A stretch of DNA of 9,293 bases from Bacillota bacterium (lineage in GTDB: Bacteria; Bacillota_I; Bacilli_A; RFN20; CAG-288): positions 1 to 9,293 of the forward strand of contig DNJQ01000078.1 of the NCBI GenBank assembly GCA_003497225.1. Direction: 5' to 3'. The number at the start of each line of letters is the position of its first letter. Position 1 is the stretch's first letter. Of this stretch, positions 1 through 9,293 are shown piece by piece. Made by a program: the position numbers and the translations under genes. The notes beneath the pieces were generated by a model that saw only the letters and a list, made by a program, of their open reading frames with translations, did not search any database and had not been told where the DNA came from.

Positions 1-294
1 GAATATGATGAAATATGTAATTACTTAATGAAGGAAACTGGATCAAGGCTTTTTGCTGGATTCTGGAAGAAGAAAAAACGAAAGGATCCTGGAGTTGAAC
101 CTTCATTTTGGTATTATGATTTAAATTTTATGATGAAAATTGCTGTATTGTTTAATCAAGAGAGCATTCTTGATTGGAAATTGCTTTGTATTGGAGATGA
201 AAAGAATAAATATATTAGAAATCCATTCTATGATAAAAATTCACCAAAACTAGATAAGGAAGCAATATTAAGAAAGATAAGAGAGGATAAATGA
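1..294 (+). CDS. hypothetical protein, 5'-truncated by the window edge
   Basis: The reading frame is open from base 1 (Glu-Tyr-Asp-Glu-Ile) to the TGA at 292-294, so the gene starts outside the window; the internal ATG at 28 is probably not its start because the codons before it are open and gene-like. The visible 97 residues hold a basic stretch (Trp-Lys-Lys-Lys-Lys-Arg-Lys), an aromatic Trp-Tyr-Tyr region and a charged C-terminus. There is no signal peptide or membrane segment in the visible part. I do not recognise the family. It ends one base before the start of the next gene, so the two are probably co-transcribed and translationally coupled. Confidence 0.6.
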   Translation, partial: EYDEICNYLMKETGSRLFAGFWKKKKRKDPGVEPSFWYYDLNFMMKIAVLFNQESILDWKLLCIGDEKNKYIRNPFYDKNSPKLDKEAILRKIREDK

Positions 295-295
295 A

Positions 296-613
296 ATGTA
301 CGATATTAGTAAATATACGCCTAATGCTCAAAAGTATTTAAGACTTAGTTGGGCTGCTTGGGAAGCTGGAAGTAAAGGCAATAAGGAAGAATATGAACGA
401 ATACTTATTGAAAGGGGAAAGTTTTGCAATGAAAATTTCACCCTTGAAGACTTTGATTCTATGATAGAAGATTCTTCTGATTATACGCCGGAATGTCTAG
501 CGTGGCAAAGAGCAAAAGAAAGATACATAGCTGAACGTCAGCAAAAGGAAATTAAAATTGCGAAAGCTGAAGATACAAAAGTGTCACCTAAACAATTTAG
601 AAAAGCAATGTAA
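296..613 (+). CDS. hypothetical protein, 105 aa
   Basis: Complete frame of 105 residues starting at ATG 296, with a GAGAGGA ribosome site inside the end of the upstream gene. The protein is soluble and highly charged: an N-terminal half rich in Trp/Tyr/Glu (Trp-Ala-Ala-Trp-Glu near residue 19), an acidic middle (Asp/Glu-Asp-Ser-Ser-Asp) and a Lys/Glu/Gln-rich C-terminal third that could form a helix or short coiled coil. There is no signal peptide or membrane span, and I do not recognise a family. The one-base gap to the preceding gene suggests an operon of at least two genes; a functional pair is possible but not shown. No hairpin terminator is visible between its stop and the repeat unit that begins about 28 bases downstream. 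Confidence 0.6.
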   Translation: MYDISKYTPNAQKYLRLSWAAWEAGSKGNKEEYERILIERGKFCNENFTLEDFDSMIEDSSDYTPECLAWQRAKERYIAERQQKEIKIAKAEDTKVSPKQFRKAM

Positions 614-634
614 ATGTGCTAGCTTATTAAAGAT

Positions 635-961
635 TTAGAGACAACTGCCACTTTTGTCCGAGCCGGACTGGCCCATTTTTTCTGCATTTTCAGGGTCGTA
701 ATTCCATTGTTTTGTCACGCTTTGGACGGCACTCAAATATACTTTTGGATTGTATTTTTGAACATATGTATCTGCTCCATAATAGTACATTCCATATGCT
801 AAATTAAAGGAGTTTAGCGAAGAAACAATCTCTAAATTGCTGATGGGATTGCTTCCTAAATTTAATTGCGCAAAGGCGTATGTAAACTTTTTATTGTCCC
901 AAGGCCGAAGTGCGCCTAATCCACTCGAAGTTAGGCTATTTCTTGCTTCAACCGATAGCAT
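635..961 (-). CDS. repeat-family protein, copy 1 (108 aa, unknown function)
   Basis: The 108-residue product aligns without gaps from its Met to residue 106 with the protein at 8158-8496; by hand count 49 of 106 positions are identical. Conserved blocks are Pro-Trp (20-21), NPIS (38-41), LEIVSSLN (43-50), KYNPKVYLSAV (69-79), Gln-Trp (85-86) and KSGS (103-106), after which the two diverge. Codons inside these blocks differ mostly at silent positions, which argues for protein-level selection rather than a non-coding repeat. I see no signal peptide, membrane span or known catalytic motif. The ATG at 961 is chosen because it coincides with the ATG in copy 2, although its ribosome site is weak (AAAGATAG). 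The frame stays open upstream to a stop at 998-1000 with partial similarity to copy 2, so a longer or non-ATG start, or a gene fragment, cannot be excluded. Confidence 0.5.
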   Translation of the reverse strand: MLSVEARNSLTSSGLGALRPWDNKKFTYAFAQLNLGSNPISNLEIVSSLNSFNLAYGMYYYGADTYVQKYNPKVYLSAVQSVTKQWNYDPENAEKMGQSGSDKSGSCL

Positions 962-1006
962 GTTATCTATCTTTGTGTATTCACGGGAGACTAAATTTTA
1001 ACGTAA
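642..1006 (-). repeat. dispersed repeat unit, copy 1
   Basis: This stretch is homologous to 8178-8552 in the same orientation. The shared left edge reads CAACTGCCACTTTT on the plus strand, and the right edge lies near GTAAT at about 1002-1006; outside these edges I see no clear similarity. Well conserved DNA blocks include TTTAGCGA(A/G)GAAACAATCTC and GACGGCACT(C/T)AAATA. GC content is about 39% by hand count. The unit contains the 108 aa coding region plus about 45 bp upstream of its ATG, where CTCCC-n-TG-n-ATAC is shared with copy 2. Boundaries are estimated by eye from two full copies and one edge fragment. Confidence 0.75.
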
Positions 1007-1012
1007 TCTCAT

Positions 1013-1040
1013 TGTATATAATTTAGTTATTTAGTACTAT
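1013..1040 (+). promoter_or_regulatory. putative sigma-A promoter for the ruvAB operon
   Basis: TTGTAT at 1013-1018 and TACTAT at 1035-1040 are separated by 16 bases. The start would fall near 1047, leaving about 40 bases of leader before the microprotein gene at 1086. A TATAAT also occurs at 1061-1066, but its start point would fall on the ribosome site and it has no good -35. The region is very AT-rich, so chance matches are likely. Confidence 0.35.
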
Positions 1041-1085
1041 GAAAATTATATAAAAAGCACTATAATATATGCTAGGAAGCAAGAT

Positions 1086-1181
1086 ATGAACGCTTTAGAT
1101 AAAGTTAGATATGGTGCAATTATTGGACTTGTAGTTCTAGTCTTGTTTATTGTTGTAACGATTATTGTTTTAAGGAGCTAA
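1086..1181 (+). CDS. 31-residue single-span membrane microprotein upstream of ruvA
   Basis: ATG at 1086 is preceded by AGGAAG (1074-1079) at six bases. The frame encodes 31 residues: a short polar N-terminus (MNALDKVRYG), one continuous hydrophobic segment of about 19 residues rich in Val, Ile and Leu, and a C-terminal Arg-Ser. This is a typical single-pass membrane peptide, probably with its N-terminus inside. Its stop (1179-1181) lies one base before the ruvA ATG, and its last codons (AAGGAGC) supply the ruvA ribosome site, so the two genes must be translated from one message. I do not recognise a family. The good ribosome site, the clean membrane segment and the tight coupling make it a credible gene despite its size. 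Confidence 0.6.
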   Translation: MNALDKVRYGAIIGLVVLVLFIVVTIIVLRS

Positions 1182-1182
1182 C

Positions 1183-1746
1183 ATGTATTATTATTTGCGC
1201 GGAACAATTGCTTTGTATGAGAAAGATGCCATTGTTGTTGATTGTAATGGCGTTGGATATTATGTTTATGTTTCTAAGCCAGAAAATTTTCCAATAGGTG
1301 AAACAATTACAGTTTATACTTCTTTACATACAAGAGAAGATGAACAATTTCTTGTTGGATTTAGAACATTTGAAGAAAAGCAAGTTTTTAATAAGTTAAC
1401 TTCTGTTAAAGGTGTAGGACCTAAAACTGCGTTATCTGCTTTAGGTGGTGCTACTCCAGCACAAATATGTGACGCAATTGAAAATGCAAACGTTTTGTTT
1501 TTAAAGAAATTACCTGGAATTGGTCCAAAAGCGGCAAATCAAATTGTATTAGATTTACGTGGTAAACTTTCTTATTCTTCTAATAGCCAAACCGGTGATA
1601 AAAATATGGATGATGCTATGATAGGACTTCGTCAATTTGGATTTAAGGCGGCTGAGATTTCTGCTGCTATGAATAAAATTACTGAGCGCGGATTAAGCAC
1701 TGAAGAGTATGTTAGAAAAGCATTAGCACTTTTAAGTAGGAACTAA
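1183..1746 (+). CDS. ruvA: Holliday junction branch migration protein RuvA
   Basis: RuvA binds four-way DNA junctions as a tetramer and loads the RuvB motor during recombinational repair. The 187 aa product has the family layout: an N-terminal OB-fold (about 1-62, beginning MYYYLRG), a middle domain with two helix-hairpin-helix motifs (VKGVGPK at 75-81 and LPGIGPK at 110-116) that contact DNA backbone, a polar linker (about 130-142) and a C-terminal three-helix domain (about 143-187) that contacts RuvB. Length is close to the usual ~200 aa. The ATG at 1183 has AAGGAGC just upstream. ruvB follows after two bases. No ruvC is nearby, as usual in Firmicutes, where RecU resolves junctions. Confidence 0.97.
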
Positions 1747-1748
1747 AT

Positions 1749-2825
1749 ATGAAGAAATCATTTAGAAAAGAAGATAATGAGAAAATTGTAGAACAGATTC
1801 TTAACTCTGTTACTGAAGAACAGGATGAGCAGGATGATATTAACCTCCGTCCCCAATCACTAGAAGAATATATTGGACAGACCAATTTAAAAAAGATGTT
1901 ATCAATTTATATTGGTGCTACTAAAGAGAGAAATGAAGCATTAGATCATGTTTTATTTTATGGTCCACCTGGCTTAGGTAAAACTACCTTAGCTCATGTT
2001 ATTGCTAATGAATTAGGTACGCATATTAAAACGATCAACGGACCAAGTTTAACTAGATCTGGTGATTTAGCAGCGATCCTTTCTTCAATTGAAGCAGGGG
2101 ATGTCGTTTTTATTGATGAAATACACCGTATACCTCGAACAGTTGAAGAAGTTTTGTATGGCGCTATGGAAGACTTCACTTTAGAGATGATAGTTGGAAA
2201 AGATGAAGCGGCTCGAACTCTTTCTGTACCACTTCCACCATTTACTCTTATCGGTGCTACAACAATGGCTGGTAAGTTATCAAGTCCTTTGCGTGATAGA
2301 TTCGGTATTATTGAAAGACTTAATTACTACGATGATGAAGAATTAGCCATGATTATTAGAAGAACTTCTAAAGTTTTCGATTTTCCAATTACGGAAGAAG
2401 CAACAAATATGTTAGCATGCCGCGGTAGAGGTACACCACGTATTGCAAATAGAATCTTTAGACGTGTTAGAGATTTTGCTTCATTCCAAAAAGCCCCAAT
2501 TATCAATGAAGATATTGCGGGTGAAGCATTATCGATGCTTCATATCGATGATATGGGATTAGATGATATTGATAGAAAATACTTATTGGCTTTGATCCAA
2601 AGATTTGAAGGCCATCCAGCGGGTTTAAAATCTATCGCTTCTGCTATAGGTGAAGAAGAAAAGAACCTTGAAGATGTATATGAACCATATTTAGTTCAAA
2701 CTGGTTTAATAAATAAAACAAGTCGTGGACGTGTGGCCACACGAAAAGCCTATCATCACATGGGATTTAAATATCCTGATGAAGATTTACAAGGCGTGGA
2801 TTTAAGTTTGAGTTTATTTGATTAA
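1749..2825 (+). CDS. ruvB: Holliday junction branch migration DNA helicase RuvB
   Basis: RuvB is the hexameric AAA+ ATPase that pumps DNA through the RuvA-bound junction. The 358 aa product shows Walker A GPPGLGKT (72-79), Walker B around VVFIDE (119-124), sensor 1 in IGATT (168-172), the arginine finger in LRDRFG (181-186), sensor 2 in GTPRIANR (228-235) and the C-terminal winged-helix DNA-binding domain with the [10 protein letters not shown] signature (319-328). The family usually has an Arg after IGATT; here it is Met, a conservative-looking drift. An acidic N-terminal extension of about 30 residues precedes the first conserved block. The AGGAA ribosome site lies inside the end of ruvA. 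The stop overlaps the convergent S66 gene by four bases, with no hairpin terminator. Confidence 0.97.
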
Positions 2826-3817
2826 TCTAAATATTTAATTATAAAATTCTCATCGCAGTAAGTTACTTCGGCTTTTGCTCCTGAGCGAAGAGGTAACGCG
2901 GGTTTTAAATGTCCAATATCGCAATCATATAAAATTGGGACATTATATTTACTGAGCATATCTTTTGTAACATCTTCAAAAGTTACACCAGCATAATCTT
3001 CCTCTATATGTAAAGGTCTTCCGATTAAAAAGCCTTTAACATGATCTTTAAACCATCCATTTTGTTCCAATTGAAAAAGTGCTCTGCGATAAGCAATAGA
3101 GTTTAAATCACAGGCTTCAAGGAAGAATATCACGCCATCTTCTTCATGCCTTTTTATATATTCTTTGGTTTGATCAAATTTAGTTCCGCAAAGACCGATT
3201 AAACAATCTAAACATCCACCTATTAGTCTTCCAGAGAATGGTTTACTATAGTTAACGGCTTTTATGACCTTTTTTGAATCTAAATGAAGTGGAGAAAGAT
3301 CATGAGTATCAGCTTTCATCGATTGATACTTTGCAAAACCTTTAAATATTTTCTTACCATGCAAAAGATTAAGTGTTTCTTCACTTTCTTCATCTAGCTC
3401 TTCAGTATAAAAAGCAGGGAAACACGGGCCATAAATAGTTTCTATATCATTTATAGTAGTGAGAGTATAGGTTAAATTTGTATTATCAGAATAACCAATA
3501 AACCACTTAGGTTTTACTTTTTTTAGCTCAGCAAAATCTATGTAGGGTAAAATCTCGACCATCGTCTCGCCTCCGCCGACGGACCAGACGATAGAACAGT
3601 CAGAAGTATAGGCGCGCATAAATTCTTTTGCTCGCTCAATTGGAGTATTTGAACCTACTATTCCAACATTTAAACGGCAGTTTTTTCCTTCGTGAATGAT
3701 ATATTCATCTTTTAATCTCTCGATAGATAAATCTAATCTTTTATCGTAAGGAAAGAAGGCGCAACCAAACGAAGGTGCGACTAGCTCGATCACATCTTTT
3801 TTTATTTTAGACTTCAT
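2822..3817 (-). CDS. S66 family peptidase (LD-carboxypeptidase / MccF-like)
   Basis: This family cleaves the L-Lys/DAP-D-Ala bond of recycled muropeptides (LdcA) or the amide bond of microcin C-type aminoacyl-nucleotides (MccF). In the 331 aa product the nucleophile is expected at Ser110 in GYSDNT, with the charge-relay Glu at 234 (FFLEACDL) and His at 303 (IGHLKPALP). GGGE (81-84) before the catalytic loop and GGCLDCL (200-206) fit the S66 fold. There is no signal peptide, so it should act in the cytoplasm. AGGAG lies eight bases before the ATG. Length and overall pattern look closer to the MccF-like branch, but sequence alone does not separate cell-wall recycling from peptide-nucleotide immunity. 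It converges on ruvB with a four-base overlap. Confidence 0.88.
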
Positions 3818-3901
3818 ATTTATAGCTCCTAATTAATTATTAAATAAACCGAAATAAATTGCAATGTTGTTTTTTGTCGAATATTGAAGAAAAAGTAAAC
3901 A

Positions 3902-3934
3902 AAAAGGAGAACATACTATTTTTGCTCTCCTTTT
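3902..3934 (-). terminator. terminator of the rubrerythrin gene
   Basis: Perfect 9-bp stem AAAAGGAGA / TCTCCTTTT (3902-3910 with 3926-3934) with a 15-base loop. On the minus strand it is followed by T-rich sequence (TTTTTGTTTACTTTTT). It lies 15 bases past the rubrerythrin stop and about 85 bases upstream of the S66 gene, so it should separate the two transcripts. Confidence 0.75.
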
Positions 3935-3948
3935 AAACGTTTGTTCAA

Positions 3949-4497
3949 TTATTTTGAAAGATATCTTTCAACTAGAGCAACTAAAGCGCGACCATGTCTT
4001 GCTTCATCTTTGCACATTTCGTGAACTGAATCATGAATAGCATCATATCCAAGTTCTTTAGCCTTTTTGGCGATAGCTAATTTACCTTTGCAGGCGCCAT
4101 TTTCACCATTAATCATCTTTTCAAGATTTTCTTTGGTTGAACTGGTGACTAATTCACCGAGCATCTCTTGGAAACGTGCGGCGTGTTCAGCTTCTTCCTT
4201 AGCAATTTGTTCAAGAACAACACCTATTTCTGGATATCCTTCTCTAAAGGCTTGTCTTGCCATAGCTAAGTACATTCCTACTTCGGTGCATTCGCCGTTA
4301 AAGTTGTCCTTTAATCCTTTAACAATTTCTGGATCTAAGCCTTTAGCAACTCCAACTTTGTGTTCATCCGCCCACACTAATTCTTCTTCAACGTAGGGAA
4401 CTACTTTATCTCCTGAAACCCCGCAAACAGGGCAGACTGGTTTTTCACCATCTTTGACTTCAAATACTTGTCCACATACTAGACATTTATACTTCAT
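3949..4497 (-). CDS. reverse rubrerythrin (rubredoxin domain first)
   Basis: Rubrerythrins reduce hydrogen peroxide at a diiron site using electrons passed through a rubredoxin iron. Here the rubredoxin-like domain comes first (Cys5-x2-Cys8 and Cys22-x2-Cys25), followed by the ferritin-like four-helix domain (about 55-182). Likely diiron ligands are Glu69/Glu72 (GECTEVGMY), the ExxH at Glu102/His105 and the ExxH at Glu165/His168. The rubredoxin-first order and 182 aa length match the reverse rubrerythrins of clostridia, which act as NAD(P)H-linked peroxidases with a separate reductase; no reductase gene is visible here. The ribosome site AGGAGGAAAG is very strong. The gene has its own promoter and terminator and marks an anaerobic or microaerophilic cell. 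Confidence 0.95.
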   Translation of the reverse strand: MKYKCLVCGQVFEVKDGEKPVCPVCGVSGDKVVPYVEEELVWADEHKVGVAKGLDPEIVKGLKDNFNGECTEVGMYLAMARQAFREGYPEIGVVLEQIAKEEAEHAARFQEMLGELVTSSTKENLEKMINGENGACKGKLAIAKKAKELGYDAIHDSVHEMCKDEARHGRALVALVERYLSK

Positions 4498-4510
4498 TTT
4501 CTTTCCTCCT

Positions 4511-4523
4511 CGCTTATTAAGCG
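4511..4523. promoter_or_regulatory. 13-bp perfect palindrome at the rubrerythrin start point
   Basis: CGCTTATTAAGCG is a perfect inverted repeat around one central base. It overlaps the transcription start expected from the promoter at 4529-4557 (near 4522) and ends directly before the ribosome site. It could be a repressor operator at +1 or a 5' hairpin in the short leader; the sequence does not decide between these. Confidence 0.45.
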
Positions 4524-4528
4524 TTTTA

Positions 4529-4557
4529 AGTTTATCATGAAGAATTATTCTTTACAA
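4529..4557 (-). promoter_or_regulatory. rubrerythrin promoter with PerR-like palindrome in the spacer
   Basis: Read on the minus strand: TTGTAA (4557-4552), a 17-base spacer, then TAAACT (4534-4529) preceded by TGA, an extended -10. The spacer and the edge of the -35 carry the perfect palindrome AAGAATTATTCTT (4540-4552). Its AAT-n-ATT core matches the centre of the PerR box (TTATAATnATTATAA), but the outer bases match only partly. PerR control of reverse rubrerythrin is known in Clostridium acetobutylicum, so the assignment is plausible but not proven. Confidence 0.5.
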
Positions 4558-4624
4558 CAAAACTGCTTAATATAAGCTTATAAACATATTTACAATTTTA
4601 ATAAATAGTAAAAATAACAATATT

Positions 4625-4663
4625 TATATAAGAAAAAAGGCCAAGATTTATTTCTTGGGCCTT
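4625..4663 (-). terminator. rpsO terminator
   Basis: Stem AAGGCCCAAGA / TCTTGGCCTT (4653-4663 with 4637-4646; one bulged base) with a 6-base loop, followed on the minus strand by TTTTCTTATATA. It starts five bases after the rpsO stop. This is the clearest intrinsic terminator in the window, and it makes rpsO a single-gene transcript. Confidence 0.9.
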
Positions 4664-4667
4664 AAAT

Positions 4668-4937
4668 TTACTTACGAATTCCTAATTTCTTAATGAGTTC
4701 CAAATAAGCATTGTGATCTTTGCGGTCGATGTAGTTTAAGAAACGACGACGACGACCAACGAGAATCATAAGTCCGCGCTTAGCAGATTGATCGTGGATG
4801 TGATCTTTGCGGTGAGCGGTGAGATTTTTGATTCTTTCGGTTAAGATTGCTACTTGAACCGCGGCAGAACCAGTATCTTTTTCAGTGCCACCGAATTCTT
4901 TGACTAATTCGGCTTTTTGTTCTTTTGTTAATTGCAT
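4668..4937 (-). CDS. rpsO: 30S ribosomal protein S15
   Basis: S15 is a primary binder of the 16S rRNA central domain. The 89 aa product has the full family pattern: the TGS turn (22-24), the RNA-contact region HRKDHIHD (42-49) and RGLMILVGRRRRFLNYI (54-70), ending KKLGIRK. The start chosen is the ATG at 4937, which gives the canonical 89 residues and has AGAAAGTGA (4954-4946) eight bases upstream, a 7-of-9 match to AGGAGGTGA. A GTG at 4949 would add four residues (MKED) but has no ribosome site and would lie inside this one. The gene is monocistronic, with its own promoter, leader and terminator. Confidence 0.96.
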   Translation of the reverse strand: MQLTKEQKAELVKEFGGTEKDTGSAAVQVAILTERIKNLTAHRKDHIHDQSAKRGLMILVGRRRRFLNYIDRKDHNAYLELIKKLGIRK

Positions 4938-5006
4938 ATCCTCTTTCACTTTCTAGATATTGTTTCCGAGTCACAACCGAGGAGGATGTTGACCAAGAAA
5001 AATAAC
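4938..5006 (-). promoter_or_regulatory. rpsO leader with possible S15 autoregulatory pseudoknot
   Basis: About 69 bases lie between the predicted start point and the rpsO ATG. GTCAAC (4993-4988) can pair with GTTG-TGAC (4977-4970, with a two-base bulge), closing a 10-base loop ATCCTCCTCG. The loop's ATCCTC (4987-4982) is the exact complement of GAGGAT (4943-4938), which lies between the ribosome site and the ATG, so hairpin plus loop pairing would make a pseudoknot covering the start region. S15 autoregulation through leader RNA structure is known in E. coli (pseudoknot) and in bacilli. The structure here is inferred by eye. Confidence 0.4.
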
Positions 5007-5012
5007 GCTATG

Positions 5013-5041
5013 ATTATACAAAAGAGAAGATAATTAATCAA
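5013..5041 (-). promoter_or_regulatory. rpsO promoter
   Basis: On the minus strand, TTGATT (5041-5036), a 17-base spacer and a consensus TATAAT (5018-5013) form a good sigma-A promoter with start near 5006. It diverges from the feo promoter; the two -35 boxes are about 40 bases apart. Confidence 0.75.
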
Positions 5042-5082
5042 GTATAGGAAGAATTATTTCGTAAAATTCTAAGTAAAAACTA

Positions 5083-5111
5083 TTGACAGTAAAAATTTAA
5101 TACGCTAAAAT
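5083..5111 (+). promoter_or_regulatory. feo operon promoter
   Basis: Consensus TTGACA (5083-5088), 17-base spacer, TAAAAT (5106-5111, one mismatch). It is the strongest promoter in the window. The expected start is near 5118, directly at the palindrome described at 5117-5134. Confidence 0.85.
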
Positions 5112-5116
5112 TAGCA

Positions 5117-5134
5117 TGTTAGTTATAACTAACA
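5117..5134. promoter_or_regulatory. 18-bp perfect palindrome, likely DtxR-family iron operator
   Basis: TGTTAGTTATAACTAACA is a perfect 18-bp inverted repeat starting six bases after the -10 box, so a bound repressor would cover the start point. The TTAG...CTAA half-sites resemble the outer bases of DtxR/IdeR/SirR-type metal-dependent repressor sites (for example TTAGGTTAGCCTAACCTAA). Its place in front of feoA-feoB supports iron-responsive repression. The identity of the regulator is inference; no regulator gene is in the window. As RNA it would form a weak AU-rich hairpin. Confidence 0.65.
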
Positions 5135-5152
5135 AGTTTGAAAGGAGTACCT

Positions 5153-5395
5153 ATGCCAATAACAATTGCACCGATAGAGGTGAATTTAGTCATTATTAAA
5201 ATAATGATAACTGATGCTAAAACTAAAAAGCATTTAGAAGATATCGGAATTGCAGTAAATTCTTCAATAAAAATTCTTTCACGCAATAGCGGTAACTGCA
5301 TTATCGTTTATAAAGGCGGACGTTTAGCATTAGACTACAATTTATCAAAGAGCATATTCGTTATGATAGATAAGGAGGATAGTGAAGAAAAATGA
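5153..5395 (+). CDS. feoA: FeoA domain protein, first copy
   Basis: FeoA is a small SH3-like cytoplasmic partner of the FeoB iron transporter. This 80 aa protein fits the family pattern more loosely than the next gene: a conserved-like KKHLEDIGI segment (about 25-33), a hydrophobic IKILSRNSGNCIIVYKGG strand pair and RLALDYNLSKSIFV near the end. The ATG at 5153 has AAAGGAG (5141-5147) five bases upstream; a TTG at 5138 in frame lies before this ribosome site and was not used. The stop overlaps the second feoA by ATGA. Tandem divergent FeoA proteins are common in Firmicutes feo operons and may have separate roles, which cannot be read from sequence. Confidence 0.88.
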   Translation: MPITIAPIEVNLVIIKIMITDAKTKKHLEDIGIAVNSSIKILSRNSGNCIIVYKGGRLALDYNLSKSIFVMIDKEDSEEK

Positions 5396-5634
5396 TTAAA
5401 ACATTAGATACTTTTTCTATTGGAGAAAATGGAATTATTGTTAAAGTTGACGGCGAAGGAAGAATTCGGAGAAGACTATTCGATATGGGAGTAACTCCAG
5501 GTGCTAATGTAGTTTTACAAAAAAGAGCGCCGCTTGGTGATCCTATTCAAGTTTTACTTCGTGGATATGAATTAACTTTAAGAAAAGATGAAGCTAATTT
5601 AGTTCACTGTGAAGTAAAGGAGGAGACTAAATGA
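5392..5634 (+). CDS. feoA: FeoA, ferrous iron transport protein A, second copy
   Basis: This 80 aa protein is the canonical FeoA: RRRLFDMGVTPGANV (about 26-40) followed by KRAPLGDPIQVLLRGYELTL (about 44-63) and a final strand with LRKDEANLV. The SH3-like fold is thought to act on the FeoB G-domain and membrane pore. It is joined to its neighbours by ATGA overlaps on both sides (5392-5395 and 5631-5634), so translation should be coupled through the operon. Its ribosome site AAGGAGG (5372-5378) sits 13 bases upstream, longer than usual, consistent with reliance on coupling. Confidence 0.95.
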   Translation: MIKTLDTFSIGENGIIVKVDGEGRIRRRLFDMGVTPGANVVLQKRAPLGDPIQVLLRGYELTLRKDEANLVHCEVKEETK

Positions 5635-7925
5635 AAAAGTTTGCCTTAGCTGGAAACCCAAACTGCGGAAAAACTACACTATTTAACGCTTTAACTGGAA
5701 GTACTGCTCACGTTGGTAACTGGCCGGGTGTAACAGTTGATAAAAGAGAAGGAACATATAAAAAGGAAAAAGAAGCGATATCTATCGTTGATCTTCCTGG
5801 TATTTATTCTTTATCTCCTTATACACCAGAAGAAGTTATATCTCGTAACTTCATCCTTGATGAAAAGCCTGACTGTGTAATTAATATCGTTGATGCAACT
5901 AATCTAGAAAGAAACTTATATTTAACTACACAAATTCTTGAAATGGATGTTCCGGTTATTATCGCTTTAAATATGAGTGATGTTTTAGATAAATCAGGAA
6001 AAAAACTTGATGCTGAACTACTTGAAAAGATGTTAAATGTTCCAGTAGTTTCTATCTCAGCTTTAAAAGAAACTAATATTGAAGAACTCATGCATAGAGC
6101 ATATTTAACAAGTTTAACTGAAAGAAAAGGAAATACTTGTTTAAAAGACACTTGTATCGCGCACTTAGTTGGTGATGTTGAAATTGCTTTTAAAGGCATG
6201 CAAGTTCAAAATCCTTTATTTCACTCAATTAAGTTAATTGAAAAAGATGAAATTGAAATTCAAGATCATCCTAATCTTCTTTCAATAATAGAAGAATTTA
6301 AAAAGACTTTTAAAAGCGAGACATTTGGAGATGATTTAGAAGCTATAATTGCAGATGAAAGATATAAATATATCTCTAACTTCACAAAAAATGTTGTGAA
6401 AAAAATAGAACGCAAAGAAGATGATTCAAAAGATTCTAAAAAGAAGAAGAAAGAGAATTCTGATGGATTAACTTTTTCTGATAAAGTTGATAAAGTATTA
6501 ACTCATAAAATATTCGGTATTCCAATCTTTATTCTCGCATTGTTTTTAATCTTCCATCTAACATTCTCTACAGACTTTTTGTTCCTTAATGCGATGGGAC
6601 TTGTCGATGTAACTTCATTTGTTGGAACTCCATATCAAGGGTTATTTGCTGATGGTGGAATAGCTTCACTTGGTACGATGCTAACAAACTTCTTCAATAT
6701 GTCCTTTGATGCTTTAGTTGATCTAACTAAAACAGGATTAGAATCGGCTGGCGCGGAAGCGTGGGCAGTTGGATTAATTGGCGACGGTATTATGTCAGGT
6801 GTACTATCCGTCTTTGGATTCTTACCGCAAATCTTAATGTTATTCTTATTCTTTTCTATTCTTGAAGATAGTGGATATATGACAAGAGTCGCTTTCATTC
6901 TTGATAGAATATTTAGAAAATTCGGTGTCACTGGTCGCGCATTCATGCCGATGATCATGGGATTTGGATGTTCAATTCCAGCCATGATTAATACCAGAAC
7001 TCTCGCTGATGAAAAAGAGAGAAGAGCAACAATTCGTGTTATACCTTTCTTCTCATGTAGTGCAAAATTACCTATATTAACCTCTGTCGCTGGAGCCATA
7101 GTAAGTAAGTTCCATATCGCTAACCCCGATATCATTACCCTATCAATGTATTTAGTTGGAATGATTGTTGCTATGGTAGCACTTATTGTTATGAGATCAA
7201 CAACGATGAAAGGTGATGTTCAACCATTCATCATGGAACTTCCAACCTATCACTTTCCAAGATTTAAATCATTGATGATTCACCTTTGGGACAAAACCAA
7301 GCACTTTGTTAAAAAAGCATGTACTATCATCTTAATTTCTAATATTGCTATTTGGTGCTTGATGCACTTTGCACCTAACTGGAGTTACTTAGAAGACAGT
7401 CAAGTTGATAATTCAATTTTAGCGGTCTTCTCAAAGATCTTACAGCCAATATTTACACCATTAGGATTCGGCGTTCAACTTAAGGGCCTCGGTTGGGTCT
7501 TCGTTGCCGCTAGTGTTGCAGGACTTATAGCTAAAGAAAACCTCGTTGGTTTATTCGCAGTCTTAGCTGGAGTCATCTCTAATGTCAGTGCTGATGATAT
7601 TAGTGAAGTTGAAGCGGTAGTAACTTTAGTAGAAAATACTCAAGTCACCGCCCCAGCGCTTATCGCCTTCATCCTCTTCAATATGACAACCATTCCATGC
7701 TTTGCTGCTTGCGCTACAGCAAGAGCTGAATTACCACAAGGAAAGTTTAAGTGGACCTTACTTTTCTGGATTGTAAGTTCCTATATCGTTGGAACTTCAG
7801 CATTCGTCATTCTCACTTGGTTATGGACAATTCCAATCTTTGTCGTCGTTATCGCTTTACTAATTGTTGCTTTATATTTCTACCGTAAAAATGGAACCTT
7901 ATTTAAAAGGAAAAAGACAGCATGA
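5631..7925 (+). CDS. feoB: FeoB, ferrous iron transporter with N-terminal GTPase
   Basis: FeoB imports Fe(II) across the cytoplasmic membrane. The 764 aa protein starts with the G-domain: G1 GNPNCGKT (8-15), G2 Thr35 in GVTV, G3 DLPG (54-57), G4 NMSD (114-117) and G5 SISA (141-144). The GDI-like helical domain follows, then an unusually Lys-rich charged linker (about 257-278), the first span after HKIFGIPIF (about 292-310), and a polytopic domain with LEDSGYMTRVAF (411-422), the conserved Cys motifs GCSIPA (446-451) and SCSAKLP (475-481), and IAKENLVG (633-640). Length is normal (E. coli 773 aa). AGGAGGAG precedes the ATG; the stop overlaps the next small gene. Confidence 0.98.
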   Translation: MKKFALAGNPNCGKTTLFNALTGSTAHVGNWPGVTVDKREGTYKKEKEAISIVDLPGIYSLSPYTPEEVISRNFILDEKPDCVINIVDATNLERNLYLTTQILEMDVPVIIALNMSDVLDKSGKKLDAELLEKMLNVPVVSISALKETNIEELMHRAYLTSLTERKGNTCLKDTCIAHLVGDVEIAFKGMQVQNPLFHSIKLIEKDEIEIQDHPNLLSIIEEFKKTFKSETFGDDLEAIIADERYKYISNFTKNVVKKIERKEDDSKDSKKKKKENSDGLTFSDKVDKVLTHKIFGIPIFILALFLIFHLTFSTDFLFLNAMGLVDVTSFVGTPYQGLFADGGIASLGTMLTNFFNMSFDALVDLTKTGLESAGAEAWAVGLIGDGIMSGVLSVFGFLPQILMLFLFFSILEDSGYMTRVAFILDRIFRKFGVTGRAFMPMIMGFGCSIPAMINTRTLADEKERRATIRVIPFFSCSAKLPILTSVAGAIVSKFHIANPDIITLSMYLVGMIVAMVALIVMRSTTMKGDVQPFIMELPTYHFPRFKSLMIHLWDKTKHFVKKACTIILISNIAIWCLMHFAPNWSYLEDSQVDNSILAVFSKILQPIFTPLGFGVQLKGLGWVFVAASVAGLIAKENLVGLFAVLAGVISNVSADDISEVEAVVTLVENTQVTAPALIAFILFNMTTIPCFAACATARAELPQGKFKWTLLFWIVSSYIVGTSAFVILTWLWTIPIFVVVIALLIVALYFYRKNGTLFKRKKTA

Positions 7926-8089
7926 AGCCAATTAATATCATAATCCTAATATCCGTAATAGTTCTTGTATCTATAATAATCGGCATCTATATTTATAAAA
8001 AGCTAACGCATAAACCAACTGGGGAATGTGCGTGTTGTGCTAAAAAGAGCAACATAGTAAAACAATATCATAAAAAATATCATCGTTAA
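7922..8089 (+). CDS. FeoB-associated Cys-rich membrane protein
   Basis: A 55-residue gene overlapping the feoB stop by ATGA. It has an N-terminal hydrophobic span of about 20 residues (Ile/Val/Leu-rich, 4-25), a Lys-rich junction, then a Cys cluster GECACCAKK (35-43: Cys36, Cys38, Cys39) and a basic, His-rich tail (Gln-Tyr-His-Lys-Lys-Tyr-His-Arg). This is the layout of the small FeoB_associated family (one membrane span followed by clustered cysteines) found at the end of Firmicutes feo operons. The cysteines probably face the cytoplasm near the FeoB G-domain and may bind iron or respond to redox state. The role is unproven; it may replace FeoC, which is absent here. Confidence 0.85.
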   Translation: MKPINIIILISVIVLVSIIIGIYIYKKLTHKPTGECACCAKKSNIVKQYHKKYHR

Positions 8090-8095
8090 ATAAGC

Positions 8096-8147
8096 AAAAA
8101 GGTCGTTTGAAATCTAGTGTCTTGCTAGATAAATAACGGCCCTTTTT
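8096..8147 (+). terminator. feo operon terminator with nested hairpin
   Basis: Outer stem AAAAAGGTCGTT / AACGGCCCTTTTT (8096-8107 with 8135-8147, one bulge and one G-T pair) encloses a second perfect 6-bp stem ATCTAG / CTAGAT (8112-8117 with 8125-8130, 7-base loop). The T5 tract lies at 8143-8147 on the plus strand. The minus strand also ends in T5 (complement of 8096-8100), so it can also end transcripts of the minus-strand gene at 8158. Confidence 0.85.
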
Positions 8148-8157
8148 AATGAATATT

Positions 8158-8496
8158 TTAAAATTTTATATTACATAAACTGCCACTTTTTTCGTACTTT
8201 TCGGCCGGGTCATTTTGCGCATTTTGGCGGTCAAATGTCCATTGATATGCCATCGTTTCGACGGCACTTAAATACACTTTTGGATTGTACTTTTTCGTTC
8301 GCGTTGTGTAACTATATAAGTACATTGCAGTAGCGTAATTTCCTATGTTTAGCGAGGAAACAATCTCTAACTTACTAATGGGATTGTATCCTAACGCTAT
8401 CTGGAAAATCGTGTATTTTAATGTCTCATCATTCCATGGTGAAAATACTAGGTAGCCTCTCGGCGTCCGCTTGTTTTTAATAGTTACTTCTCCCAT
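8158..8496 (-). CDS. repeat-family protein, copy 2 (112 aa, unknown function)
   Basis: Paralogue of the product at 635-961. From the Met at 8496 the two align without a gap through residue 106, sharing PW (20-21), NPIS (38-41), LEIVSSLN (43-50), KYNPKVYLSAV (69-79), QW (85-86) and KSGS (103-106); the last six residues (LCNIKF) are unrelated to copy 1. The ATG at 8496 is preferred because it coincides with the copy 1 start and has AAGGA ten bases upstream. The frame also continues upstream to a TTG at 8544 (16 more residues, including SPAYWKE), and that part resembles copy 1 weakly with a one-codon gap, so a longer start is possible. No signal peptide, membrane span or known motif is visible. 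It is read toward the feo terminator. Confidence 0.55.
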   Translation of the reverse strand: MGEVTIKNKRTPRGYLVFSPWNDETLKYTIFQIALGYNPISKLEIVSSLNIGNYATAMYLYSYTTRTKKYNPKVYLSAVETMAYQWTFDRQNAQNDPAEKYEKSGSLCNIKF

Positions 8497-8552
8497 ATTT
8501 TCGGTTTCCTTCCAGTATGCAGGGGAGATCCAATAAAACCTCAAAGTAATAC
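8178..8552 (-). repeat. dispersed repeat unit, copy 2
   Basis: Homologous to 642-1006, same orientation. The left edge is AACTGCCACTTTTTT, identical over its visible length to copy 3 at the window end; the right edge is near GTAAT (8546-8550). GC content is about 39-40% by hand count, against about 28% in a 180-base piece of the lipoprotein gene next door. The coding frame of the family runs 20 bases beyond the left edge before it meets a stop. Confidence 0.75.
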
Positions 8553-8596
8553 GTATTTATTTTAGATAGAAAAGAAATAACACAAAGATTATTTAA

Positions 8597-8625
8597 TTGC
8601 TATCAGTATTAAGAAATATTATTGT
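8597..8625 (+). promoter_or_regulatory. weak candidate promoter for the lipoprotein gene
   Basis: TTGCTA (8597-8602), a 17-base spacer and TATTGT (8620-8625), each with two mismatches to the sigma-A consensus. Position is reasonable for the gene at 8650, but the start near 8632 leaves a leader of only about 18 bases, and the region is AT-rich. Confidence 0.25.
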
Positions 8626-8649
8626 CTATTAAAAAAAGGAGATAGTAAA

Positions 8650-9222
8650 ATGAAAAAATCATTATTGTTAGCATTAATGCCATTAATAGTTACGACAAGT
8701 TGTAGTAATCCTATATCTTCTATATCTTATTCATTAGTCTATTTTGAAACTCCTCCTTCGCCACCATTAAGCCTATTTAATAGCTTCATTATGCCAACTG
8801 AACTAGAAAAACTATATTCATTATCTAACATAAAAATAGAAGTAAATTTAGCTTTTTATAAAAAAGGGCAATCGGATTTTCCTTGCCCAGAATATGCTAT
8901 GGTTTATATGAATAAGGGAGAAAGAAATTATAGTGCAGATAATTCTGTAGTTTTATTTGAAACAAGTAATAAAGAAGAATTAGAAAAATTCTATTTTATT
9001 CCTAATGAAAACTACACAAATATTAAATATGGCGGAAAAGTAGAGTTAAGTGTACCATCAGACTATTTCACGGAAGATGTTGGTATTCAAGGCATATACT
9101 ATACTTTTAAAAATCCAAAAGAAAATAGCGATGAAGAGATATCTCCAGAAGGATGTACTTCAATTGTGTATCAAAAGGTAACAAAAGATAAAATACATAT
9201 ATCTGTAAGAGGGTGTAGGTAA
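8650..9222 (+). CDS. putative lipoprotein, unknown function
   Basis: The 190 aa product begins with a signal peptide: Lys-Lys, a hydrophobic core (LLLALMPLIV) and Cys18 in VTTSC. Ser at -1 fits a lipobox, but Thr at -3 is atypical, so lipid attachment is likely rather than certain. The mature part is polar and probably beta-rich, with a Pro-rich stretch (about 35-40, ETPPSPPL), and three further cysteines (79, 169, 189) that could form disulphides outside the cell. I do not recognise a domain. AAAGGAGA lies about eight bases before the ATG. The gene is AT-rich and sits alone between two copies of the repeat family; no hairpin terminator is visible after its stop. Confidence 0.75.
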   Translation: MKKSLLLALMPLIVTTSCSNPISSISYSLVYFETPPSPPLSLFNSFIMPTELEKLYSLSNIKIEVNLAFYKKGQSDFPCPEYAMVYMNKGERNYSADNSVVLFETSNKEELEKFYFIPNENYTNIKYGGKVELSVPSDYFTEDVGIQGIYYTFKNPKENSDEEISPEGCTSIVYQKVTKDKIHISVRGCR

Positions 9223-9278
9223 ATATCTCATTAGAAAGTTGCCAAATAAGAAAATACATATAGGGTAACCTTGGGGCC

Positions 9279-9293
9279 AACTGCCACTTTTTT
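9279..9293 (-). repeat. dispersed repeat unit, copy 3 (first 15 bases only)
   Basis: AACTGCCACTTTTTT at the window end is identical to the left edge of copy 2 and matches copy 1 over AACTGCCACTTTT. Read on the minus strand it encodes the family's terminal Lys-Ser-Gly-Ser in the same frame. The rest lies outside the window. In this copy the frame does not stop after KSGS but stays open to a TGA at 9160-9162, into the antisense of the lipoprotein gene's 3' end. Confidence 0.65.

Follow-up and report, generated by a model that had tools for sequence, protein, structure and literature searches.

What are the short, related reading frames that recur between ordinary genes of a Bacillota draft genome, and from where are they read? 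The stretch analysed here (the window) comprises bases 1–9293 of the 10,705-base contig C109 of draft genome G000, and an earlier note, made from its letters alone, had described in it three copies of a repeated gene family. The true unit is a cassette, not an ATG-started gene. It is bounded by two short fixed ends, its frame runs through the 5′ end, and it recurs at dozens of places in the draft, where contigs frequently break; such cassettes may serve as silent donors for a variable protein, a reading weighed below. The draft genome itself comprises 882,665 bases in 150 contigs with runs of N, and is 61.75% complete with a contamination of 0.02.

Anatomy of the cassette

The cassettes of the window and their parts are the following.

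643–990, minus strand: cassette copy 1, 348 bases from border to border, with the open frame VSREYTKIDNMLSVEAR...DKSGS, recognised by its borders, translation and family membership.
985–990, minus strand: 5′ border TCTCCC of copy 1, with TAG directly before it.
643–655, minus strand: 3′ border AAAAGTGGCAGTT of copy 1, a sequence that the genome repeats exactly, 61 times in all (reversed control, 0).
638–961, minus strand: open reading frame (ORF) of copy 1 counted from the ATG chosen in the earlier note, probably no true start.
821–829, minus strand: conserved inverted-repeat arm ATTGTTTCT inside copy 1.
848–856, minus strand: the other arm of the copy 1 inverted repeat, GGAAGCAAT.
8178–8528, minus strand: cassette copy 2, 351 bases from border to border, with the open frame ISPAYWKETENMGEV...EKSGS, recognised by its borders, translation and family membership.
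8523–8528, minus strand: 5′ border TCTCCC of copy 2.
8178–8190, minus strand: 3′ border AAAAGTGGCAGTT of copy 2.
9279–9293, minus strand: third cassette, 3′ end only, AAAAAAGTGGCAGTT, with GGCC next outside.

Copies 1 and 2 have been confirmed, and their alignment is the one first described, with 46% identity over 106 residues (E = 6.5e-25), matching the 49 of 106 residues counted by hand in the earlier note. The limits of the unit were drawn differently there: it is bounded by the cassette borders, and its coding frame begins upstream of the ATG, at the border. The third copy, placed at the window edge, is present there as its last 15 conserved bases alone; beyond the window two N are followed by a 5′ end, so that the body of this cassette is missing from the assembly. 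The single orientation reported for the copies holds in the window, but genome-wide 36 ends lie forward and 25 reverse, on contigs that are arbitrarily oriented.

Flanking sequences are unrelated up to two sharp borders, YCTCCY on the 5′ side and AAAAGTGGCAGTT on the 3′ side; two further A most often precede the latter, and one copy has AAAAGAGGCAGTT. The whole unit measures about 337–367 bases (337, 346, 349, 361 or 367, counted from CTCC to the last AGT, in thirteen cassettes). Two core motifs were recognised together in 98 proteins, 97 of which have them at the same distance; the length of the tail mostly changes by 12 bases, or four residues, giving a spacing of 28, 32 or 36 in 88 of 94 proteins. 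The sequence of these 12-base steps differs among cassettes (an example is the tail at window positions 643–690).

Some units end early, and a new 5′ border comes directly after them (C29, C23, C143 and C107; P0010, P0015 and P0040). Such joints often fall on an internal pair of Ser and Pro codons resembling that border (L120 in C29, L118 in C23, L123 in C143 and L040 in C107). A second lineage of relatives (P0107 and P0114–P0117) carries QKGEA or a similar sequence in place of the terminal KSGSW. A glycine-rich stretch replaces the region of the ATG and its methionine in P0107, P0114 and P0116, and P0115 and P0117 start inside this stretch.

Copy number and distribution

The genome contains 38 recognisable cassette bodies, the same number being recovered with copy 1, another copy or an alignment as the query. 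The 13-base 3′ end occurs 61 times exactly, although two of these occurrences, both in C90, are flanked alike on either side of a stretch of N and could be a single one; the 5′ end pattern occurs 26 times, with none for its control. Scaling the 61 ends by the completeness of the draft (61/0.6175), the whole genome would hold about 100 cassettes if its missing part resembles the rest. The earlier expectation that three copies in the window imply many more has thus been borne out.

Beyond this genome, the family was not found in the 278 others of the order (279 with its own; 150 at least 90% complete), nor in a collection of genome contigs from which the own or very near records may have been left out. 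Viral contigs gave no matches, and scans of phages and plasmids led nowhere. The protein database gave 136 relatives; among the 120 listed, 108 come from sources other than the genome studied here and 112 are alone in their 90% cluster.

Apart from weak, isolated matches, no family in Pfam, NCBIfam, PHROGs, PADLOC, PDB or Rfam fits the cassettes. The best weak match for a window cassette is phrog_25218 (E = 0.0052), which has no assigned function there, and Pfam matched one or two of 106 members (E = 0.003–0.008); the alignment used here with 106 rows (A4) takes 12 from the window and the loci and the rest from the listed proteins. A literature search that mostly left subscription journals aside turned up known donor systems but no recognised description of the family, so prior publication is possible. 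The family is therefore dispersed, cassette-like and nameless in the curated collections, as had been proposed. The contrary prospects were a family confined to these copies, or decayed fragments of a known gene; instead the copies are many, match no known gene and are mostly undecayed, with a stop inside 5 of 38 places.

The reading frame runs through the 5′ border

Over 31 copies, the cassette frame holds 2 stops in 2,561 codons and each of the other five frames 125–238 in 2,534–2,561, so the frame is not a product of chance. Between the border and the ATG there is no stop in 310 codons of this frame, compared with 34 in 310 and 3 in 279 for the other two; outside the 5′ border the same frame holds 21 stops in 315 codons. 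A Shine-Dalgarno core precedes 2 of the 31 cassette ATGs (29 are without it) versus 35 of 69 first ATGs of ORFs of at least 150 residues, the first ATG in these controls not necessarily being the true start. One chance hit (L011 minus) was left out of the analysis of frame and ATG.

Because the frame is open upstream of the ATG, Shine-Dalgarno cores are rare and the ATG region is replaced in relatives, selection acted on a protein running through the border. The earlier description of the units as genes read from a shared ATG is not supported on these counts, and no long ORF was seen to lead into them in frame; its claim of constraint on the family at the protein level is upheld.

Conserved blocks and mosaic bodies

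Over all pairs of copies the ratio of nonsynonymous to synonymous differences (pN/pS) is 0.72, and in eight-codon windows it runs from 0.49 in the core to 0.86, values that are rough at such large distances; the last window, of one codon (ratio 0.15), is left out of this range. The earlier statement that differences are mainly silent is thus partly right, and some core codons show no silent change at all. GGA is kept in 31 of 31 copies at one core position and GTT in 31 of 31 at another, while glycine and valine codons elsewhere take four forms, so the DNA as well as the protein is conserved. A pair of core blocks makes up an inverted repeat, GGAARCAAY ... RTTGTTTCN (window 821–829 and 848–856, and at the same place in other copies); counting G-T, eight of its pairs form in 94% or more of the 31 copies. 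An RNA element was considered and set aside: Rfam gave nothing at the cassettes, and covariation between columns returned the one inverted repeat and no further clear helix.

Between the conserved blocks, the segments of the protein vary almost independently, and the copies are therefore mosaics. Across three segments, pairwise identities are nearly uncorrelated (r = 0.13, 0.10 and 0.06) among 105 of 115 aligned proteins, the ten rows with more than eight gaps having been dropped from an alignment (A3) of 115 of the 120 listed proteins. In a control of 49 RuvB proteins, a set that spans more distant organisms, the median correlation between segments is 0.56 (0.41–0.69). Seven pairs of cassette proteins are at least 85% identical in one segment, and five of them differ strongly in another: P0018 and P0046 are identical in segments one and two and 41% alike in the third, P0043 and P0044 show the reverse, and P0017 and P0028 also belong to this group. 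At the DNA level the highest identity between copies compared over more than 150 sites is 0.87. Exchange among the assembled copies appears to be old or fine-grained, to judge from a mean DNA identity of 0.59 and the few long tracts that they share.

Contig ends at cassette borders

Contigs break at cassettes far more often than expected. A contig end is at most 70 bases away from 31 of the 61 3′ ends, and no more than about 12 bases away from 24 of them; the chance expectation is 1.45. From the contig ends not already known to hold a cassette 120 were sampled, 14 of which were all N, and 20 of the 106 readable ones stop at the 5′ border by motif, several exactly there. The motif had matched 23 ends, three of which were set aside by eye as chance (L208, L244 and L285); of the 20 that remain, four stop at CGCC or CGCCA, ahead of YCTCCY, and we estimate that perhaps one other is due to chance.

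The simplest explanation of these breaks, judged from the assembly rather than from reads, is that the sampled population carries several different cassettes next to one and the same flank, because the ends that sites have in common are just 6–15 bases long. A 3′-polar replacement of cassette bodies was also considered and rejected: the first pattern required 35 cassette bases and missed the breaks at the 5′ border seen in the sample of contig ends.

Proposed silent donors for an expressed protein

Many partial copies with fixed ends, mostly without a start and mosaic in their bodies, have the anatomy of silent donors of the msp2/p44, tprK, vlsE and pilS type. We propose that the cassettes are silent donors, dispersed in the genome, for one hypervariable expressed protein, by a mechanism that would run as follows. 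Recombination in the conserved blocks and at the ends would generate new variants, and one site would carry different cassettes in different cells, as assemblies stopping at the borders suggest. An expression site would supply promoter, start and constant regions; reading would enter through the 5′ border and leave through KSGS and often Trp-Pro. The product putatively faces outside, and its diversity may serve evasion of, or adaptation to, host or phage. RecA, RuvA and RuvB are present in the genome, as are three tyrosine recombinases.

Our confidence in this proposal stands at about one half, because no expression site was found. No long ORF in the cassette frame stands in front of any of the 50 left borders examined (one of them the chance hit left out above as L011 minus, here L041 minus); of the clean in-frame lead-ins the longest, at 41 codons, is antisense to another ORF, and one of 101 codons runs into another cassette and N. 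After 62 right borders a stop follows within 52 codons in 61 cases and within 94 in the remaining one. No protein of 231–735 or 588–1,872 residues that shares short words with the family reaches E = 0.001. A candidate site at C59 was rejected, its upstream frame being antisense to another ORF. The missing site is not strong evidence against the proposal, since a single one would serve some 100 cassettes and the draft lacks 38% of the genome.

Further observations count against silent donors. Breaks in contigs could also be caused by a mixture of strains or by coverage, and the cassette cut at a contig end in C22 is found whole in another of the listed contigs (P0014). Among the seven closest pairs, two (P0052 and P0056, P0078 and P0092) are fairly alike in all segments. 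The 31 copies share on average 59% of their DNA and six identical tracts of at least 30 bases, which leaves little for RecA. AlphaFold2 gave no confident fold, with a predicted local distance difference test (pLDDT) of 63.4 and 54.9 and a predicted template modelling score (pTM) of 0.32 and 0.30 for two models, and the first model had no match in the PDB. The lack of a confident model would fit a part of a larger fold, or a coevolution signal lost by shuffling, and proves neither.

A wider form of the proposal is less probable. The roughly 100 cassettes at gene ends would then make up a genome-wide combinatorial library, with bodies exchanged among fixed sites and into the expressed protein through the short ends and internal blocks, giving each cell its own repertoire. 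Ends and blocks of 6–15 bases would be too short for ordinary RecA exchange.

Gene ends and alternative explanations

Cassettes often abut gene ends. A stop triplet stands directly before 17 of the 50 left borders (background 0.075 per position), and 12 of 22 co-directional ORFs ending at most 60 bases away end 0–1 base before the left border. On the other side, 28 convergent ORFs end at most 60 bases from the right border, and in 7 of them the stop extends into or adjoins the final two conserved bases. One reading is that, in a compact genome, spacer was trimmed up to functional borders. The idea that a frameshift fuses the cassette to the gene ending at its border was rejected, as the frame relation varies (L041 and L260) and convergent genes abut right borders too. 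One convergent ORF (C2:12229–13200) encodes a tyrosine recombinase and has a stop codon that shares bases with a cassette's 3′ border; with 61 dispersed cassettes this may be chance.

The strongest alternative, which we nevertheless consider unlikely, is a mobile element: a small non-autonomous unit with precise ends that spreads in intergenic DNA, its frame being a passenger or needed when it inserts into genes, as is described for the Rickettsia palindromic elements. Single dispersed copies with sharp ends in unrelated flanks speak for it, and so do units that begin inside other units. The ends look partly inverted, with GCCA or GCCG before 20 of the 50 left borders and GGCC after 28 of the 62 right borders; five of those 20 are contig ends picked by the motif CGCC (L197, L226, L277, L284 and L311), and 15 of 45 remain without them. 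The family is missing from the other genomes searched in the order, and the draft encodes three tyrosine recombinases, one gene ending exactly at a cassette border. Yet target duplication is not above chance in the ten cassettes with both flanks readable (repeats are no longer than between shuffled partners, 356 of 1,000 shuffles reaching the observed sum), and no left border was seen in frame within a host ORF. With no pair above 87% DNA identity, the copies are unlike those of a recently spreading element, and their near-uniform length and constraint at the protein level also speak against one. No serine recombinase or reverse transcriptase (PF00078) was found in the 62% complete draft.

Similarly improbable is a family of small proteins, each about 110 residues long and expressed on its own from the shared ATG, that duplication and selection would have diversified. 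That account draws on the ATG, kept in almost all copies (entropy at most 0.24 over 25 rows), on invariant core residues, on open frames intact in 33 of 38 places, and on the search in which no longer protein with a cassette domain was found. It has difficulty with the constrained frame upstream of the ATG and the two Shine-Dalgarno cores among 31 copies, with a methionine not kept in the second lineage, with segments that are not inherited together and with the lack of a confident autonomous fold.

Very improbable is a diversity-generating retroelement or other targeted mutator that rewrites variable stretches in place. Hypervariable stretches do lie between conserved ones, and the conserved 3′ end is reminiscent of the initiation site of such elements; but no reverse transcriptase was found in the draft (the control was detected in 3 of 14 genomes), and A is involved in 72 of the 117 differences that separate the three closest pairs, the proportion expected from composition (0.61), even though in one of these pairs it is involved in 28 of 37. 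An artefact of a chimeric draft or of spurious ORFs, which the 150 contigs, low completeness and runs of N might suggest, is contradicted by window copies that adjoin ordinary bacterial genes, a contamination of 0.02, 108 of 120 listed relatives from other sources and the stop statistics.

Other features of the window

The ordinary genes in the window encode RuvA, RuvB, LD-carboxypeptidase, rubrerythrin, ribosomal protein S15, FeoA and FeoB. The ORFs for RuvB and the carboxypeptidase share four bases at their ends (2822–2825), which points to a compact genome. An attempt to place the organism by RuvB led nowhere, its best full-length matches, at 52–55%, being spread over mixed organisms. A plus-strand ORF between the second and third cassettes (8650–9222) has a start that looks by eye like that of a lipoprotein and matches no Pfam family. 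Ahead of the S15 gene, positions 4881–4984 of the minus strand give a sub-threshold match to the ribosomal S15 leader (20.1 bits; gathering threshold 39.5).

Relation to known systems and significance

The Rickettsia palindromic elements are small repeats, dispersed and open in frame along their whole length, which also occur in frame inside genes. The cassettes resemble them in being small, dispersed and open throughout, but none was seen in frame inside a gene here. Donor systems offer closer parallels. In the account of Anaplasma phagocytophilum msp2/p44, about 100 functional pseudogenes accompany an expression cassette with conserved ends, and the copies, which belong to pfam01617, lie for the most part in a single cluster close to the expression site (PMC2789410). 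Unlike what that account describes, the cassettes studied here are about 350 bases long, are dispersed and have no Pfam match, and no expression site was found in the draft.

For Treponema pallidum tprK, the cited account has 53 silent chromosomal donor cassettes feeding seven variable regions of one gene (PMC10063172). The recipient gene is known in that account. In general the donors of tprK match single variable regions, whereas one cassette here spans several variable and constant stretches. Mycoplasma genitalium is described as holding partial MgPar copies at several loci of a very small genome, which recombine with the expression site in the MgPa operon (PMC2169797). The account gives nine loci with partial copies of the operon; here there are 61 short 3′ ends with fixed borders, and no recipient was found.

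If the cassettes are silent donors, the genome would hold about 60–100 donor segments, dispersed at gene ends instead of clustered. To our knowledge, such a repertoire would be as large as the largest known in bacteria, and we know of no antigenic variation reported for this lineage. Since many contigs stop at cassettes, the same reading would explain why the genome assembles poorly. If it is true, how fixed ends of 6–15 bases support the exchange of whole cassettes becomes testable.

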